Below are positions 39,597 to 49,183 of a stretch of DNA of 64,000 nucleotides, one piece after another; position 1 is the stretch's first letter; each line of letters starts with the position of its first letter. The position numbers were made by a program, and so were the translations under genes. The DNA comes from Candidatus Protoclostridium gallicola (GTDB lineage: Bacteria > Bacillota > Clostridia > Christensenellales > Pumilibacteraceae). The notes under the pieces are model-generated. The model did not search any database. It was not told the DNA's origin and saw nothing but the letters and a program-made list of their open reading frames with translations. The stretch spans positions 21,309-85,308 of the forward strand of contig CAJFLE010000005.1 in NCBI GenBank assembly GCA_904387375.1, read 5' to 3'.

Positions 39597-41591
39597 TTAA
39601 GCCGTCGTGCCGGTATCCGTTCCCGTGCCGGTGTCGGTACCCTCTTCCTCGTCGGTGCCGAAGTTCTCCCAGCTCGAGTGGTCGTGGTGCCAGTCGATGC
39701 AGTCGGTGTCGTGGCAGACGATCTGGGTGCGCTCGTATTCGGGCACATAGCCGAGCTTGACGCCGTACAGGCTGCTGTCGTCGAACATACCGGATATCTT
39801 GTTGATATACATGTAGTTCTGAGCCGTCGAGGTGTAAGCGCTGAAATACGAGACGTAGGTCTCCGTCGTCGTCACCTTTTCGCCGTTGTCTGCGGTTGCG
39901 TCAAGCGTGACGGAGAAGAAATCGATGCCGAAATTGTCGGTAACGGGAGTGAAGCCGGAAGCGTGAAGTTCGGCGGTCTGATTGGAGTAGTCCTCGTATG
40001 CGGAGCAGGAGAAGAACACGCTGGAAGTCGTGGTCTCTTCACCCGTTTCATCGTCGGGTTTTGTGGTCTCCATGAGTCCGTACGCGCGGCCGCTGTAATA
40101 GCCGAGCAGCGTGACGCCCGATCCGTCGTAGATCTTAACCGAAATAACATCGTCGCCGTTGCCGGACTCGTAACGGTAGAAGCCGTCCGACGTCGAAGCG
40201 ATCACGCAGGGCGCGACGCTGTATTCGCCGTCGCCGGACACCGAACCGCCCGAAGATTCCACGGAATTATCGACGGGAATTATCGTCGTAAGCGACGAAG
40301 TATCCTCGACGAGCACGGGATTGAGTTTGCCGAGGTCGGAAGTGATCGCGTTCGCGGCGTCTTCGCCTTCCCTGTCTTCGACGTACTGTCTGCGCTGAGC
40401 GCAGCAGTCGGTGACATTCAGGCTCGTTCTGCCGTCGGCACTTGTGTTGGTGAAGTACAGATAATTGCCCGCGACTCCGGTTATGGAAATGGCGCCGTCG
40501 GTGACGGTGTTGTTGGTGATCTCCTGTCTGTTGCCGGCAAAGTCGGTCATCTCGAGGATCACGCCGTTCGCCTTCTCGCTGCTGGAAGCGGTGCGCGTGA
40601 AGTAGATATAGTCGGAAACGGTGTCGTAACCGGTTTCTTTGTCCGTACTCGCGTCATACGTGGTCTTTTCCGGGAAATATACGCTGTCTACGCCGCTGAC
40701 TATTTCTTCGGTGCCCGTGCGCACGCCGTTGTGTATGGTGGTGCACACGATGAAGCCCGTCGTGATGCCGTCCTGCTCGTCCTCGGAATTCGCGTAATAC
40801 GATTCGAACGTGACGAGATATACGTTATCGTTCTGCTTATAGAACGCATACGGAACGGAAGCATTCACTTCCGTCGCGGTATAAAGCTGAGTAAGCGAAC
40901 CGGTATTGAGGTTATAGCTGTAGAACTCGGCGCGTTCGTACTGAACGTTGCCTTCGCTGTCGCGATCGGTGTCGGGCGAAGCGAAGTACACGATGTCGTC
41001 GAAGATCCAGAAGCCGCCGTCATAGCCGGACGTGCCGATCTTCTTGCTTATGACCTGTTCGACTTCGATGGAATAAGCGGACTGCTCTCCGTTTGTGGCC
41101 ACTTTGTTCTGCACCCAGTTGCCGTTTTCGTCGAGCACCTGCGCGTCCTCGTTGTTGTCGGGGTCGCCTATCTGATATTCGCCGAGGTCGACGTAGTCCA
41201 GCTTTTCGTATTCGAAATCGAGCACCGTTTTGAGCTGGCTGTCGTCCTTGATGTTGTGGTCGACGCGGCCGTCTTCCGTCAGATTGCCCTCGGCCGATTC
41301 CGCTGCGGAAAGCGTGGGACGTTCGTCCACTATCTTCGCGCGGTACAGGCCGCCTTTCATAACGCTGCCGGTGCGGTTTGTTTCGCCGCTGTCGTCGGTG
41401 TATTCGGGCACGCCGTTGATGAAGTAGACGTAATCGCCGTACCGGACGGTGGTGCCGCCGTTGGAATATACGACGGGCAGAGATTCGTCCCCGTTATCCC
41501 CCGGCTCGCAGGCCGTGAGGAAAGCAAACGCGGACAGGCACAGCGCCGCGCTGAGCAGCACCGCGAGCAATTTTTTGATTCCGTTTTTCAT
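39597..41591 (-). CDS. Secreted lipoprotein with beta-propeller-like repeats (DUF5050-like), unknown function
   Basis: Lipobox LSAFAFLTAC; repeated YxDYVYFINxxP-like segments; T/G-rich tail. Confidence 0.75.
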   Translation of the reverse strand: MKNGIKKLLAVLLSAALCLSAFAFLTACEPGDNGDESLPVVYSNGGTTVRYGDYVYFINGVPEYTDDSGETNRTGSVMKGGLYRAKIVDERPTLSAAESAEGNLTEDGRVDHNIKDDSQLKTVLDFEYEKLDYVDLGEYQIGDPDNNEDAQVLDENGNWVQNKVATNGEQSAYSIEVEQVISKKIGTSGYDGGFWIFDDIVYFASPDTDRDSEGNVQYERAEFYSYNLNTGSLTQLYTATEVNASVPYAFYKQNDNVYLVTFESYYANSEDEQDGITTGFIVCTTIHNGVRTGTEEIVSGVDSVYFPEKTTYDASTDKETGYDTVSDYIYFTRTASSSEKANGVILEMTDFAGNRQEITNNTVTDGAISITGVAGNYLYFTNTSADGRTSLNVTDCCAQRRQYVEDREGEDAANAITSDLGKLNPVLVEDTSSLTTIIPVDNSVESSGGSVSGDGEYSVAPCVIASTSDGFYRYESGNGDDVISVKIYDGSGVTLLGYYSGRAYGLMETTKPDDETGEETTTSSVFFSCSAYEDYSNQTAELHASGFTPVTDNFGIDFFSVTLDATADNGEKVTTTETYVSYFSAYTSTAQNYMYINKISGMFDDSSLYGVKLGYVPEYERTQIVCHDTDCIDWHHDHSSWENFGTDEEEGTDTGTGTDTGTTA

Positions 41592-41622: not shown

Positions 41623-43728
41623 TCATTCTTTTATCTTTATCGTCACGCTGCCGCGGAGCAGTCCGGCGCTCTTTGCGCGCACGGTCATCTTGCCTTCGCG
41701 CAGGCCGCGCACTACCGCGACCGCATGTCCGTCCGTAGAGGAGACGGCGCCGCTCATGAGCGAGGGCCCGAAGCCGTTGCCGAGCGCGACGATTTCGCCG
41801 TCGCCTTCGACCGTAAATTCGATGTCGCAGGCCGCGCCGGTCTGGCGACCCTCTTTATCGAGGATCCATGCGTCCACGAACGCGATTCCTCCGGCGGAAG
41901 CGCTTACCCTCTTCGAACCGGTCAGCAGTTTGACCGAGCGGGGCGCGCCCGTCGTTTCCAGCGACGCGCGGCATATCTCCCTGCCGCGGCTGAAGCATAC
42001 CGCTTCCAGCACGCCGGGTGCGAAATCGGCCGTGAACGTCGCTATGTATCTGTTCAGTCTGCCCGCGAGCTTCCTGCCCACGATGCGGCCGTTAAGATAC
42101 AGCGCAACGACGTCGCCGACGGTAAACACGTTTATATCCACGCGGCTGCCCTCTTCGAAATTCCAGCTCACCGAGCCGGACATCGCGGGAGCGCCGTGAG
42201 GGCAGGCGGTGATGAACGCCGACGGATTGCCGAGCAGTACGGAGCGGTACAGTCCTGTCATGCGCGGCAGGCACGTGGAGTCGATGTCGCCGAGAGCGAA
42301 CGCGCCGCTCTCGCCCGTGTCCATGCCGCAGTCGGACAGATCGCCTATATGCGCGCCGTTGCGGCTCATATCCGTGACGGCGTCGAAGTAATGTTCGGGC
42401 GGGGTCGCCAGCCCGATGAACGGTTTATCCGCATGAGGGTACGACGGAGAGTATCCGGCGTAACCGTAAACGTCGAGAGGAGCGACGAACGCCTCCGTAC
42501 GTTTTGCGTACAGCCCCACCCGTCTGCCGAGAGATACGAGCCCCTCGTCGTTGACGCATTCGGCAATCTCCGAGCGGGTAACGCCTTCTTCGGCAAGTTC
42601 GCTCGCGAGAGGGACGAGTTCGGCCAGCGCGGCGGTGACGGGACGGGAATCGTCCATTGCGCGCACCGTCGCTATCAGCGCGCTTTCCCTGTCCGCGCCC
42701 GATCTGCCGTAGCTCTCTTCGGGAGCGTTGCCTATCGAATATATCGCGACGGAAGGATGATTGCGCAGCGTGCGCACGGCTATTGCCGCGGCCGCCTGCC
42801 AGTCCGAAGCGAATCCGGTATGGTCGCCGCCCTGTCTCGGCCACGACCAGCCGTCGAAGATATCCACTATGACGCGCATGCCGAGCTCGTCGGTCACGCG
42901 CAGTACGTTGTCCGAGGGACAGCCGACGAATCTCACGGTATTATAGCCGAGGTCGCGGAGCGCGGAAAGCCTGCGCATCTCGCCTTCGGGAATGCTGAGG
43001 CTGCCGAGCATGCCGCCGGTATGGGACAGCGTGCAGCCCACCAGCTTGTCCGCGGCGGAATATCTGCCGTGACCGCATACGCCGAACTTCGTTTCGGCAC
43101 GGTCGAGCACGTTGCCGTCCGCGTCCATTATGACCGCGGACATCGTGTACATAAACGGCGATTCGGGAAGGTATTCCTTTGCCCTGCGCATACGCACGGG
43201 CACGGAAACCGTCCTGTCGCCGGGCATGAACGTGAAATATTTTCTCTTGCCCGCGACGCGTCGGCCGTTGGGCATCAGAACGTCGAACTGCACGCCCAGC
43301 CTGCGCTTCGCGCCGTCGTTGCGCACGTCGGCGGTGACGGTCAGCTCCGCGCCGCCGTCCGCTATCGAATCGGTGCGCACGAACACGCCGTAAGGCAGGA
43401 CGTATACGTCCGAATCGGTCACGTGAAGCCTTACCGAGCGGGTAATCCCGCCGCCCAGCCCCAGACCGAGGCGGAGTTCGGCGCCCTTGCCGAGGTATTT
43501 CGTTATGTCGATGAGAGCGCGGGTTTTTCCAGCCCTGCCGGCGTACTGCCCTCCGGCATATACGTCCGCGCCGCGTTCGGCGCCGTCCACGTCGACGACC
43601 GCCCTGCCGGAGGATACGGGCAGCTTTGCCGATATATCGGACTCGGCGGCGGAAAGTATGCAGGGCAGCCCGACGATACCGTCCGTGCCGCGCACGCGCC
43701 AATCTTTTGAGATTTCGATTACGTTCAT
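41623..43728 (-). CDS. Glycoside hydrolase family 2-like protein, predicted catalytically impaired
   Basis: GH2 architecture; LRNHPSVAIYSIGNAPEES and PFIGLATPPEHYFDAV; start MNVIEISKDWRV with SD gaggt. Confidence 0.85.
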   Translation of the reverse strand: MNVIEISKDWRVRGTDGIVGLPCILSAAESDISAKLPVSSGRAVVDVDGAERGADVYAGGQYAGRAGKTRALIDITKYLGKGAELRLGLGLGGGITRSVRLHVTDSDVYVLPYGVFVRTDSIADGGAELTVTADVRNDGAKRRLGVQFDVLMPNGRRVAGKRKYFTFMPGDRTVSVPVRMRRAKEYLPESPFMYTMSAVIMDADGNVLDRAETKFGVCGHGRYSAADKLVGCTLSHTGGMLGSLSIPEGEMRRLSALRDLGYNTVRFVGCPSDNVLRVTDELGMRVIVDIFDGWSWPRQGGDHTGFASDWQAAAAIAVRTLRNHPSVAIYSIGNAPEESYGRSGADRESALIATVRAMDDSRPVTAALAELVPLASELAEEGVTRSEIAECVNDEGLVSLGRRVGLYAKRTEAFVAPLDVYGYAGYSPSYPHADKPFIGLATPPEHYFDAVTDMSRNGAHIGDLSDCGMDTGESGAFALGDIDSTCLPRMTGLYRSVLLGNPSAFITACPHGAPAMSGSVSWNFEEGSRVDINVFTVGDVVALYLNGRIVGRKLAGRLNRYIATFTADFAPGVLEAVCFSRGREICRASLETTGAPRSVKLLTGSKRVSASAGGIAFVDAWILDKEGRQTGAACDIEFTVEGDGEIVALGNGFGPSLMSGAVSSTDGHAVAVVRGLREGKMTVRAKSAGLLRGSVTIKIKE

Positions 43729-43776: not shown

Positions 43777-43798
43777 CCGGGTGTACGCTATACACCGG
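43777..43798. promoter_or_regulatory. Operator-like inverted repeat at the predicted GH2 TSS
   Basis: CCGGGTGTA-CGCTA-TACACCGG directly downstream of -10 TATAAT (43806-43801); -35 TTGACG (43830-43825). Confidence 0.6.
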
Positions 43799-43888
43799 TT
43801 ATTATACAATAAAACGCCGATTAACGTCAAGTATTATGCAAACTCGTTGCGCGCTTTTTTTGCTCATTTTACCGAAAAAGGCAGAGGA

Positions 43889-43911
43889 AAAGGCGGGCGC
43901 CGCCCGCCTTA
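43889..43911 (-). terminator. Terminator downstream of the 43920-44918 gene
   Basis: AAGGCGGGCGGCGCCCGCCTTTTCC on minus strand. Confidence 0.6.
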
Positions 43912-43919
43912 GGTTATCG

Positions 43920-44918
43920 TCACAGCACCGACCTGCCCGTGACGCCGTCCTGATACATTATCCAGAAGCCTTTGCCCGCCGGGTCGCCGGGATCGAGCGC
44001 GAGCCACTGGCAGTAGCCCACGAGATCGGGCGGCGGATCGGGCGAATATTCGCCGGGCACGCCGTAGCACAGGTAGCGCACGGGATCGCCTATGACGCCG
44101 ACGAGGTAATACTTCCCCGTCGAATTGTAGTTCACCTTTATCCAGCGCGAGTCGGGCAGCAGCCGTTCGAGCGCTTCGTACCGTTCGTTGTTCGCGAACA
44201 GCCGCTCCACCTGGTCTTTCACGCTCTCGTAGAAGGACACGGGCTTAAGTTCGGGCACGGCGCGGGCGGCGGAATACTCCGCGTCGGCGAGCGGCGGTTC
44301 GGTTTCGTCGGCCACCGAGGCCGCGACCTCGTCCGGAGCAGACGCGGGAGATCCGGGCGGCGGCTCCGGAGCCGCGCTCTTTTCCGGCGCGATTTTTTCC
44401 GCGGGCGCGGGAGGGTCGAACGAGGGCGGCGTGAGCGTATCGGCGAATTCCGGTTCGCTGTCCGCCGTCAGGTTGGATTTGTAATAGTTCACTTCCGCGA
44501 CGCGCGTGTCGTCGTAATCGGAAGGAATGATGTCGAGGAAAAAGTCGTTTATGTCGCGGACGTTCTTCTTTTCTATGCCGAGGCGGCGGAGGGCGAGGCG
44601 CACGTCGTCTTCGAGGTTGCCGCGCCATGGCATGGGACGGCGGAAGCCGCCGTACATTACGAGACTGCCGGACAGATCGCCCACCGCGGCGACGAGACTG
44701 TCGATATTCACCCCGCCGGGCAGGCTGAATCTGTACGGCGAGCCGAGATTGAAGTCGCCGAAACACAGAAAATTCGCCTCGTCTTTGATGACGAGCACGC
44801 AGTCGCACTTCACGCTGCCCGTCAGATAGCACCGGAAGGAGTTATCCGTCTTTTCCAGCCGCAGGCAGCCGCTTGCCGTTCCGCCGCCGAGAACGAGCAG
44901 TCTTTTTTCGTAGATCAT
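43920..44918 (-). CDS. Uncharacterised two-domain protein with central Pro/Ala/Glu-rich linker
   Basis: SD gcggagg; N-terminal beta-rich module, C-terminal VNYNSTGKYYLVGVIGDPVRYLCYGVPG...GFWIMYQDGVTG. Confidence 0.75.
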   Translation of the reverse strand: MIYEKRLLVLGGGTASGCLRLEKTDNSFRCYLTGSVKCDCVLVIKDEANFLCFGDFNLGSPYRFSLPGGVNIDSLVAAVGDLSGSLVMYGGFRRPMPWRGNLEDDVRLALRRLGIEKKNVRDINDFFLDIIPSDYDDTRVAEVNYYKSNLTADSEPEFADTLTPPSFDPPAPAEKIAPEKSAAPEPPPGSPASAPDEVAASVADETEPPLADAEYSAARAVPELKPVSFYESVKDQVERLFANNERYEALERLLPDSRWIKVNYNSTGKYYLVGVIGDPVRYLCYGVPGEYSPDPPPDLVGYCQWLALDPGDPAGKGFWIMYQDGVTGRSVL

Positions 44919-46714: not shown

Positions 46715-49183
46715 TCAGCCGCTCACGGTAGTGCCCGAACCGGAAGAAGTCGAACCCGAGGTCGAGCCGGACGTAGAGCCGGAGGTCGAGCCGTCGGTCG
46801 ATTCCTCGTCGTCCGTCGTATCGTCGGTGACGTACAGACTGTCTTCGTAATCATCGAGACGGGACTGGAATCTGTCCTTATGGACAACGATCACGCCGTC
46901 GGTATCGGCATACTTCGAAGCGGTGGTTTCCTGCCACGTCGTGTAAGCGTTGTCCACGCGCGTGGACACGAGATCCTGATTGAGTTCGTCGTATATCGTC
47001 GTATCGCTGCCCGGCGTCAGCTTCTCGTTAAGCTGGCGGGTATAGCCTGCGGTGGGAACGTAGCAAAGATACATGATGTGCCAGCCGTAATCGGTGAGCA
47101 CCGGAGCGGAGATGCTGCCGATTTCCACCTCGTCGTTGCAATCCTGTCTGCACAGTCTGTCGCCGAGGCTGTCGTACGTGGTGATGAATTTGCCGCTTGC
47201 GAGCTTATACTCGGACAGAGACTGATCGTTACGGTACGCGTTGTAAAGATCGCGGGACTCGCGCGCGAACTCGATCATATACTGCTCGGTCTGGCCGCCT
47301 TCGGCCTCTGGCGTTACCGCAACGGCGTAGCCCATGGCGCTGTCGAAGATGCCGGGGTCGGTATTGTACGTATAGATAAGCTCTGTGAACTTCTGTTCCG
47401 CGGCGTAAGGATCGGAAGCGACCGCGCGCATCTGTGCGCTGATGTCCGCATACGCCTGCTCGATAGTGTACGAACGCGACGTATCGTCCTCGCCGTCCAC
47501 GTGCTTATATACGACGACCTGTCTGCCCAGCTCCTCGCGTTTTTTCGCCACGGCGGCGTCGGTATTGCCGTCAGCTTTAAAAGCTTCCAGCGCAGCCGTC
47601 TGTTCGTCGGAGAACGGAATGAGGATGTGCTTGACCCAGAAATACTCGGCGTCGGCAAAATACAGGATGGTGTCGCCGTTCGTCACTGCCGAATAGTAGT
47701 TGGAGATATCGCTCGTGAAGTCGGCCATCTGCTGAGCGAGCTGCTCGTCGTACGCCGCTTTTACGTCGGATTCGGTCGTAAGGTCGAGGTGACGGGAAAC
47801 GGTGAGATAGTCCTTGTAGCCGTTTTCTTTGAGCGTGTATTCCTCGCTCTCGCCGTACATATATCTTACGAGATCGTAAGTGTAAAGGTCGAGATAAAGT
47901 TCGTCGATGCCCGCGGTCGTTTCGCAGCGCGTGCGCATGTCGGCGATCTCGGCCTCGTATTTCGCGCGGTCGGTATCGGACAGCGCGTAGTTATCGTCGA
48001 GCGTGTCCTCGAAGTAATCGACGAGGCGGCGTACGCCCTCGCGCTGAACCGAGTTGATCATGGGATCGTCGGAATGCCCTACGCAGCGGTCGGGTTCCTG
48101 AGAAACGTGCCAGACTTCGTAATCCTCGTCGTACGCGGGATCGGTATCCTCGTCGGGCGGCGTGGGATAGGTCGTTTCGGAATCGCTTTCGCTGCCCACG
48201 CTCGGATAAGTCTGACCGAAGTCATCCGCAATTTCCGAGTAAAGCGTGGAAAGCTGGGAATCTATGCTGTCGTATATGGCTTTGTTGACCTCGTTGATTT
48301 CGGTCACGCCCCACTTGACGCTGCCTGCCGCGGTCGCCGCGTCGAGTTCGGCGCGCGTCAGCGCGGAAGTATAGAATTGGCGCATAAAATAATCGAACGC
48401 TTCGTCCACCGTATAGCCCTGGTTCTGCACGAGGTCGGCGGCGTAGTTTTCGAAATAATTTATGAGCGTGACTTTGAAGAACTCATACTTTTCCGACGTA
48501 TAGGTAGCCGTTTCGTAAACGGGCGTACGTTTTTCCCAGGTAAAGTTGACTTCGGAAGAAGCATTGTATGCTTCATAATATATTACGGGAAGCGCGGTGT
48601 CTATAAGATCGTCGGTATCGGGCGCGGGCGGAACGTAATTTTCGTTCGTCGGCTGCGAATTCATATATGACAGCGGGCCGTAATGCGTTTCGCCGGTCAC
48701 GACGTCATGCCAGAGCGCGGCCCTGACCGAGCCGTTCTCGCCTATTCTTATAAATCCGTCGTAGCGGTATTCCGCCGCGGTGACTTCGTCGTTGCTGCCG
48801 ACGCGGTATACCACGGCGTAGTAATCGGAAACGGCGTTCGTTTCGTCGGTGTACTTAATCGCATGGTTTTCGACGACGGGCTTTTTGATGACAGTGCCGT
48901 CGTTGGCGTATCTGACCGTCTGCACCACACCGCTTTCGTTCGTGGGAACTTCGGCGACGTAATCGGCGTCGGCGGCGTTATTGTATACGGGATTGCCGTC
49001 GGGATCGAGATAATCGAAATACATCGGGACCTCGTACGTGATCTCGACGGGATTGACTTCGAGTATTACCTGCGAGTAATCCTTTTCTTCGCTGTACGAA
49101 ACTATACAGCCGCTCAGCACAGCCGCCGCTGCCGCGACGACCGTTAACAGCGCTATGAGTTTAATCAGACTTCTTTTTTTCAT
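46715..49183 (-). CDS. Large PrsA/SurA-like lipoprotein foldase with parvulin-like region
   Basis: Lipobox VLSGC; EYFWVKHILIPFSDEQ...DPGIFDSAMGYAV...EIGSISAPVLTDYGWHIMYL; downstream of mfd. Confidence 0.8.
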   Translation of the reverse strand: MKKRSLIKLIALLTVVAAAAAVLSGCIVSYSEEKDYSQVILEVNPVEITYEVPMYFDYLDPDGNPVYNNAADADYVAEVPTNESGVVQTVRYANDGTVIKKPVVENHAIKYTDETNAVSDYYAVVYRVGSNDEVTAAEYRYDGFIRIGENGSVRAALWHDVVTGETHYGPLSYMNSQPTNENYVPPAPDTDDLIDTALPVIYYEAYNASSEVNFTWEKRTPVYETATYTSEKYEFFKVTLINYFENYAADLVQNQGYTVDEAFDYFMRQFYTSALTRAELDAATAAGSVKWGVTEINEVNKAIYDSIDSQLSTLYSEIADDFGQTYPSVGSESDSETTYPTPPDEDTDPAYDEDYEVWHVSQEPDRCVGHSDDPMINSVQREGVRRLVDYFEDTLDDNYALSDTDRAKYEAEIADMRTRCETTAGIDELYLDLYTYDLVRYMYGESEEYTLKENGYKDYLTVSRHLDLTTESDVKAAYDEQLAQQMADFTSDISNYYSAVTNGDTILYFADAEYFWVKHILIPFSDEQTAALEAFKADGNTDAAVAKKREELGRQVVVYKHVDGEDDTSRSYTIEQAYADISAQMRAVASDPYAAEQKFTELIYTYNTDPGIFDSAMGYAVAVTPEAEGGQTEQYMIEFARESRDLYNAYRNDQSLSEYKLASGKFITTYDSLGDRLCRQDCNDEVEIGSISAPVLTDYGWHIMYLCYVPTAGYTRQLNEKLTPGSDTTIYDELNQDLVSTRVDNAYTTWQETTASKYADTDGVIVVHKDRFQSRLDDYEDSLYVTDDTTDDEESTDGSTSGSTSGSTSGSTSSGSGTTVSG

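Follow-up and report, generated by a model that had tools for sequence, protein, structure and literature searches.

A GH2-fold protein of Candidatus Protoclostridium gallicola with an apparently erased active site: a probable pseudo-glycosidase in a conserved gene neighborhood

In barrels of clan GH-A, the acid/base residue is expected after strand 4 and the nucleophile after strand 7. The best-known pseudo-glycosidases with a retained function are animal proteins, and the chitinase-like protein CHI3L1 is a pseudo-glycosidase of GH18-like type. The ectodomains of 4F2hc and rBAT are GH13-like and are described, in the portion of the source cited here, as "fake or orphan" alpha-glucosidases (PMC8537225). 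For GH2, the cited sections of a 2025 survey divide the family into 23 subfamilies and describe the loop-7 nucleophile Glu as invariant (PMC12243196). According to the same sections, changes of the acid/base residue are known in GH2_16, GH2_19, and GH2_21: the residue is Asp in GH2_16, is replaced by NA, NQ or TV in GH2_19, and is replaced by Trp, Lys, Arg or Asn in GH2_21 (PMC12243196). Loss of the acid/base residue alone therefore has precedent, while clade-wide loss of the nucleophile goes unmentioned in those sections of the survey (PMC12243196). A literature search covering mostly papers free of subscription returned no description of a GH2 pseudoenzyme of the type reported here.

The window analyzed is a stretch of 64,000 nucleotides from Candidatus Protoclostridium gallicola. 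The gene under study, here called C0, lies between two neighbors called C3 and C1, and its main features are as follows.

41623..43728, minus strand: candidate pseudo-GH2 gene (C0), 701 aa, ATG start
42199..43077, minus strand: TIM barrel, residues 218-510, from Pfam and the AlphaFold model
41971..42150, minus strand: DUF4982 domain, residues 527-586, from Pfam
41644..41922, minus strand: GH2 C-terminal domain 5 (C5), residues 603-695, from Pfam

C0 is one open frame of 701 codons initiated by ATG (43728..41623, minus strand), and a GAGGT ribosome-binding site stands a few bases 5' of the start; the original prediction had described an intact frame of about 700 aa with a Shine-Dalgarno sequence, and both statements were confirmed. 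No signal peptide was visible in the C0 sequence. The Ig-like, TIM barrel, DUF4982, and C5 domains were all recognized by Pfam past their curated cut-offs, with the Ig-like domain at residues 115-217 and the PF02836 match, at residues 257-366, spanning the first half of the barrel only. PF00703 and PF02836 scored 30.5 and 29.7 bits in C0, each above its curated cut-off, and among 18 relatives of C0 they were found in 17 and 18, respectively. These results showed that C0 is a homologous member of the GH2 fold family with a complete GH2 architecture.

The positions of the two Ala residues that replace the catalytic Glu pair are central to any reading of this gene.

42724..42726, minus strand: codon of A335, acid/base position, GNE changed to GNA, from phmmer, the profile and the alignment with 18 canonical GH2 proteins
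42406..42408, minus strand: codon of A441, nucleophile position, GSE changed to GLA, from the profile and the alignment with 18 canonical GH2 proteins

Both segments on which the original prediction was built were found in the C0 translation: LRNHPSVAIYSIGNAPEES contains A335 (loop 4), and PFIGLATPPEHYFDAV contains A441 (loop 7). Four kinds of evidence bear on their placement. First, a phmmer comparison with solved GH2 structures paired the GNA of C0 (in IGNAPEES) with the GNE region. Second, a profile of the 18 relatives, when compared with 7RSK and 6B6L, placed loop 4 on GNE and GLAT on ASES, with A441 on the Glu. Third, in the alignment of C0 with canonical GH2 proteins, the acid/base and nucleophile columns are Glu in 18 of 18. 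Fourth, an AlphaFold model of C0 contains eight barrel strands and puts A335 right after strand 4 (327-331) and A441 right after strand 7 (437-439); the confidence of this model is moderate (pLDDT 77, pTM 0.78), with the loops 293-305 and 467-479 under pLDDT 50. When the model was compared with solved structures, the top matches were GH2 enzymes over the whole length, including 6B6L with a TM of 0.81 (TMq). Since the phmmer search, the profile, the alignment, and the model agree, misalignment is not the explanation of the Ala/Ala call, and a wrong alignment as its source was ruled out. The coordinates first given for the two codons were exact, the acid/base position being upheld in all four ways and the nucleophile position by the profile, the alignment, and the model. 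The structure-based comparison proposed along with them, in its strand placements and in the fold match to 6B6L, also agrees with the Ala positions.

When the source genome and 60 related genomes were searched, 11 of 13 congeners proved to have an orthologue of C0, as did members of further genera in the family. A profile search then placed the gene in 51 of 74 family genomes and in 10 of 18 genera, one copy each; the 51 are profile matches minus canonical GH2 matches, and the sample of relatives includes metagenome-assembled genomes. Clade members scored about 750-1005 bits in bulk and about 300-510 bits at their most divergent (g3, g6, and g16), and the top GH2 matches outside the family reached 415 bits (order) and 465 bits (class); those inspected in the order and class carried canonical motifs. 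A tree that included canonical GH2 proteins put all 39 full-length members on one side of a branch with support of 100/100. Collectively, these comparisons indicate that the clade is monophyletic and confined to Pumilibacteraceae, here a family of uncultured gut Clostridia. One orthologue, L091 (G035:C32, 1060-2940), lacks the part of the barrel that runs from the loop following strand 4 to roughly strand 8. This deletion is in frame, with DUF4982, C5, and the C3 and C1 neighbors retained, and it may be genuine or stem from faulty assembly.

The loss of the active site was followed through the clade by counting residues in the 39 full-length members and in 18 canonical GH2 proteins. Three further codons of C0 are listed here with these counts.

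43024..43026, minus strand: S235, in place of the active-site His (HH motif, strand 1); His in 18/18 canonical proteins and 0/39 clade members
42922..42924, minus strand: G269, in place of the loop-2 active-site His (xHNP); His in 18/18 canonical proteins and 0/39 clade members
42331..42333, minus strand: D466, in place of the loop-8 stacking Trp; Trp in 18/18 canonical proteins and 0/39 clade members

The acid/base Glu, present in 18/18 canonical proteins, is found in 0/39 clade members, whose column reads D in 22, G in 5, C in 3, A in 2, K in 2, M in 2, and other residues in the rest. The nucleophile Glu, likewise 18/18 in the canonical set, was lost in 37/39. Not one member has a carboxylate in both catalytic columns, and the 22 with an acid/base Asp all have a residue other than a carboxylate in the nucleophile column. 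The only two members with a nucleophile Glu, L007 (IESS) and L008 (SETS), both have Gly at the acid/base position. The loop-8 Glu is kept in 2/39. The strand-2 Arg, which assists the nucleophile, is present in C0 (R266) and in 26/39 of the clade. Thus, among the residues expected of a catalytically competent GH2 enzyme, C0 lacks the nucleophile, the acid/base, the loop-2 His, and the loop-8 Trp and keeps the strand-2 Arg, and the change is best described as erasure of the whole active site, beyond two point changes. Conservation of the Ala pair among homologues had also been proposed as a check. It did not hold: the pair is common only to C0 and its nearest relative L005, from a sister species, and was rejected as a conserved signature of the clade. 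It is the loss that is conserved, while the replacing residues vary.

The surroundings of C0 were compared in the same genomes.

39597..41591, minus strand: C1, 664-aa lipoprotein and candidate beta-propeller, 31 bp 3' of C0, from its lipobox and a model
43920..44918, minus strand: C3, 332-aa protein of an uncharacterized family, 5' of C0, from synteny
43801..43830, minus strand: sigma-70 promoter TTGACG-18-TATAAT of the C0-C1 unit, with like promoters in congeners
43780..43796, minus strand: inverted repeat GGTGTATAGCGTACACC just past the -10 box, a possible operator or 5' UTR stem, unconserved in sequence
43891..43905, minus strand: terminator-like hairpin 3' of C3, between C3 and the C0-C1 unit, from sequence

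The order C3, pseudo-GH2, C1 is retained over many genera, and C1 stands just 3' of C0, with a gap of 31-181 bp, at nearly every locus whose contig extends far enough to include C1; one of the exceptions is G032, in which C1 is sited elsewhere. Neither C1 nor C3 gave a Pfam or NCBIfam match or a convincing sequence relative in the PDB. The C1 members aligned carry a lipobox, and the low-confidence model of C1 (pLDDT 57) only suggests a beta-propeller. Of the 74 family genomes, 71 have C1 and 70 have C3, and C1-like matches were found in 65 of 126 genera sampled across the order. Farther along the window (46715-49183, minus strand), an 822-aa lipoprotein-like protein shows conserved synteny throughout the genus; its sole match is a weak one to rotamase near the C-terminus (PrsA-like).

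The original prediction had given C0 an operator-like promoter. The promoter part stands, as the sigma-70 promoter is conserved in ten congeners, where the pseudo-GH2 gene is preceded by a TTGACT-type promoter whose TATAAT is perfect. The operator part does not, as the inverted repeat GGTGTATAGCGTACACC varies in sequence among congeners, and a conserved operator was rejected. In genomes without the pseudo-GH2 gene, C3 and C1 are often adjacent, as in the two congeners L130 (G013) and L131 (G012), which have a like promoter directly 5' of C1 and in which a search for C0 remnants between C3 and C1 yielded just short matches at chance level. The C0 and C1 gene trees are concordant within the genus, and the C1 tree requires at least two changes in the presence of C0 on well-supported branches. 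Most simply, C3 and C1 would be an old pair, and the pseudo-GH2 gene would have been inserted between promoter and C1 and later lost in some lineages.

A gene without its catalytic residues could be a decaying one on its way out, and the absence of C0 from 23 of the 74 family genomes, including the two congeners in which C3 adjoins C1, together with the large internal deletion in one species (G035), could be taken in this sense. However, the closest usable C0 pairs gave a dN/dS of 0.083-0.123 at a dS of 0.45-0.66, compared to 0.102 for a control pair of canonical, active GH2 proteins at similar distance. This similarity argues that C0 is not decaying, and recent decay was ruled out on this ground. 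Furthermore, no stops were seen inside the clade frames among the matches listed, the promoter and the gene order over many genera are retained, and new residues specific to the clade have become conserved. We therefore consider decay most improbable. The original prediction that C0 does not look like decay, and the purifying selection in homologues that it proposed to look for, are borne out by the low dN/dS, the intact frames, the fixed gene context, and the family-wide monophyletic clade. C0 is thus an intact frame under purifying selection, as a functional pseudoenzyme should be.

Within the protein, constraint has shifted to sites other than the old catalytic residues.

42052..42069, minus strand: L554-A-G-x-x-N559 (LAGxxN) in DUF4982, conserved in the pseudo clade only, from alignment
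42703..42717, minus strand: codons of E338-R342 (E-S-Y-G-R), a clade-conserved motif; R342 in 39/39, Y340 in 38/39, E338 in 37/39
42598..42600, minus strand: codon of E377 (loop 5), 39/39 in the clade and unconserved in canonical GH2

DUF4982 is the most conserved domain of the clade, where 22 of its 69 columns reach at least 85%, compared to 9 in canonical GH2. In the barrel, D289 is found in 37/39 clade members, at a column that holds Glu in canonical GH2. The model places D289, E338, Y340, R342, and E377 after strands 3, 4, and 5, beside the old acid/base loop, where they would form a conserved cluster at the barrel mouth. Such a cluster, at the C-terminal face of barrel strands 3-5, raises the alternative of an active enzyme with relocated residues, in which D289, E338, R342, and E377 catalyze another reaction (inverting, lyase-like or other). 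The near-complete conservation of these residues is in its favor, and so is the statement, in the cited sections of the survey, that another Glu is believed to act in GH2_21 proteins without the acid/base residue (PMC12243196). The same sections, however, call the nucleophile invariant with GH2_21 included (PMC12243196), and 37/39 members of the clade have lost it. Loss, or near loss, also extends to both His residues, the loop-8 Trp, and the loop-8 Glu, and G035 keeps the gene in place with the second half of the barrel missing. In addition, E338 and the acidic residue at 289 are conserved in canonical GH2 as well and may be structural; because E338 is common there, it is no specific replacement, and another Glu as catalytic substitute was rejected. 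We regard relocated catalysis as unlikely. As for the different catalytic residue that the original prediction had allowed for, the losses speak against it, and the conserved cluster is what could still accommodate a new binding or catalytic site.

C0 might instead join an active GH2 paralogue of the same cell in a hetero-oligomer, as its regulatory or structural subunit. The source genome does encode two other GH2 proteins, G000:C8 (L001) and G000:C2 (L002). The latter (794 aa) is alike in domain type; unlike C0, it has GNE and GSET intact, lies elsewhere in the genome, and falls outside the clade. In a family-wide scan for GH2 barrels, however, a single match, fitting C0 itself, was all that the matches listed showed for about nine genomes of g18, one of g4, and two of g6, some of the g18 calls resting on the counts and E-values of the scan, and the gene is kept in these genomes. 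Among the same matches, about a dozen genomes had nothing beyond C0, or nothing at all, and g16 conserves the gene with no GH2-barrel match. Since these genomes apparently have no other GH2 barrel, partnership with an active GH2 is weakened as a general rule, and we consider it quite improbable.

The reading that we prefer is that C0 is a cytoplasmic pseudo-glycosidase, a GH2 fold that has lost the retaining reaction and is kept for a non-hydrolytic binding or scaffold role together with C1 and C3. We put its probability at about 0.7. A pseudo-glycosidase, with a possible carbohydrate-binding, sensory or scaffolding role, is also what was originally proposed, and the monophyletic family-wide clade, the purifying selection, the fixed context, and the erasure of the whole active site all favor the pseudo-glycosidase. 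On the other side, the acid/base Asp of 22/39 members is a residue also seen at that position in GH2_16, two members have a nucleophile Glu, and the confidence of the C0 model is moderate. As a pseudo-glycosidase, C0 would bind a ligand or a partner in the cytoplasm in the service of the C3/C1 system. The constraint in DUF4982, with its LAGxxN motif, may mark a protein-protein surface, and that in the barrel-mouth cluster may mark a remodeled ligand site or a structural lock. Direct contact between C0 and C1 is doubtful, as the lipobox of C1 and the lack of a signal peptide in C0 lead one to expect the two on opposite sides of the membrane; they may be co-regulated for a common process instead of touching. 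Co-conservation of neighbors is no proof that C0 interacts with C1 or C3. A fuller scenario, which is tentative and on balance doubtful, is that a GH2 gene entered between the promoter and the older C1, lost hydrolysis in the ancestor of the family, and became a working part of a three-gene system not described before, in which D289/E338/Y340/R342/E377 at the old barrel mouth would make up a new site for binding or reaction and DUF4982 would offer a surface for protein contact.

These results have several implications. First, the clade represents a vertically inherited bacterial GH2 lineage that lacks even the nucleophile, a residue held to be invariant in GH2. Second, as the nucleophile is gone, at least 51 genomes would be misannotated if the gene were called a beta-galactosidase. 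Third, the fixed operon, the congeners with and without C0, and the clade-specific residues make the new role directly testable. Fourth, the system offers a handle on C3 and C1, which are uncharacterized and near-universal in the family, with C1-like proteins extending well into the order.

Compared to the GH2 beta-galactosidases that carry DUF4982 and C5 (6B6L/7RSK, BuGH2A 5T98, Bacillus circulans 7CWD, and 4YPJ), C0 is alike in fold over its whole length (TM 0.81) and in the order of its regions. It differs from them in having lost the catalytic Glu pair, the active-site His, the Trp, and the loop-8 Glu and in the shorter N-terminal sugar-binding domain of its genus. Compared to GH2_19 and GH2_21, replacement of the acid/base residue is shared, whereas the nucleophile, which the cited sections of the survey hold to be invariant, is lost in 37/39 members of the C0 clade (PMC12243196). 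Among proteins that keep a glycosidase fold as a partner protein, 4F2hc and rBAT, as presented in the cited portion of the source, are the nearest analogy found (PMC8537225). The retention of a glycosidase fold for a binding or partner role, as in 4F2hc/rBAT and CHI3L1, is by analogy what is proposed for C0; those proteins are animal and belong to other GH families, whereas C0 is a GH2 protein that is bacterial, apparently cytoplasmic, and encoded in an operon.
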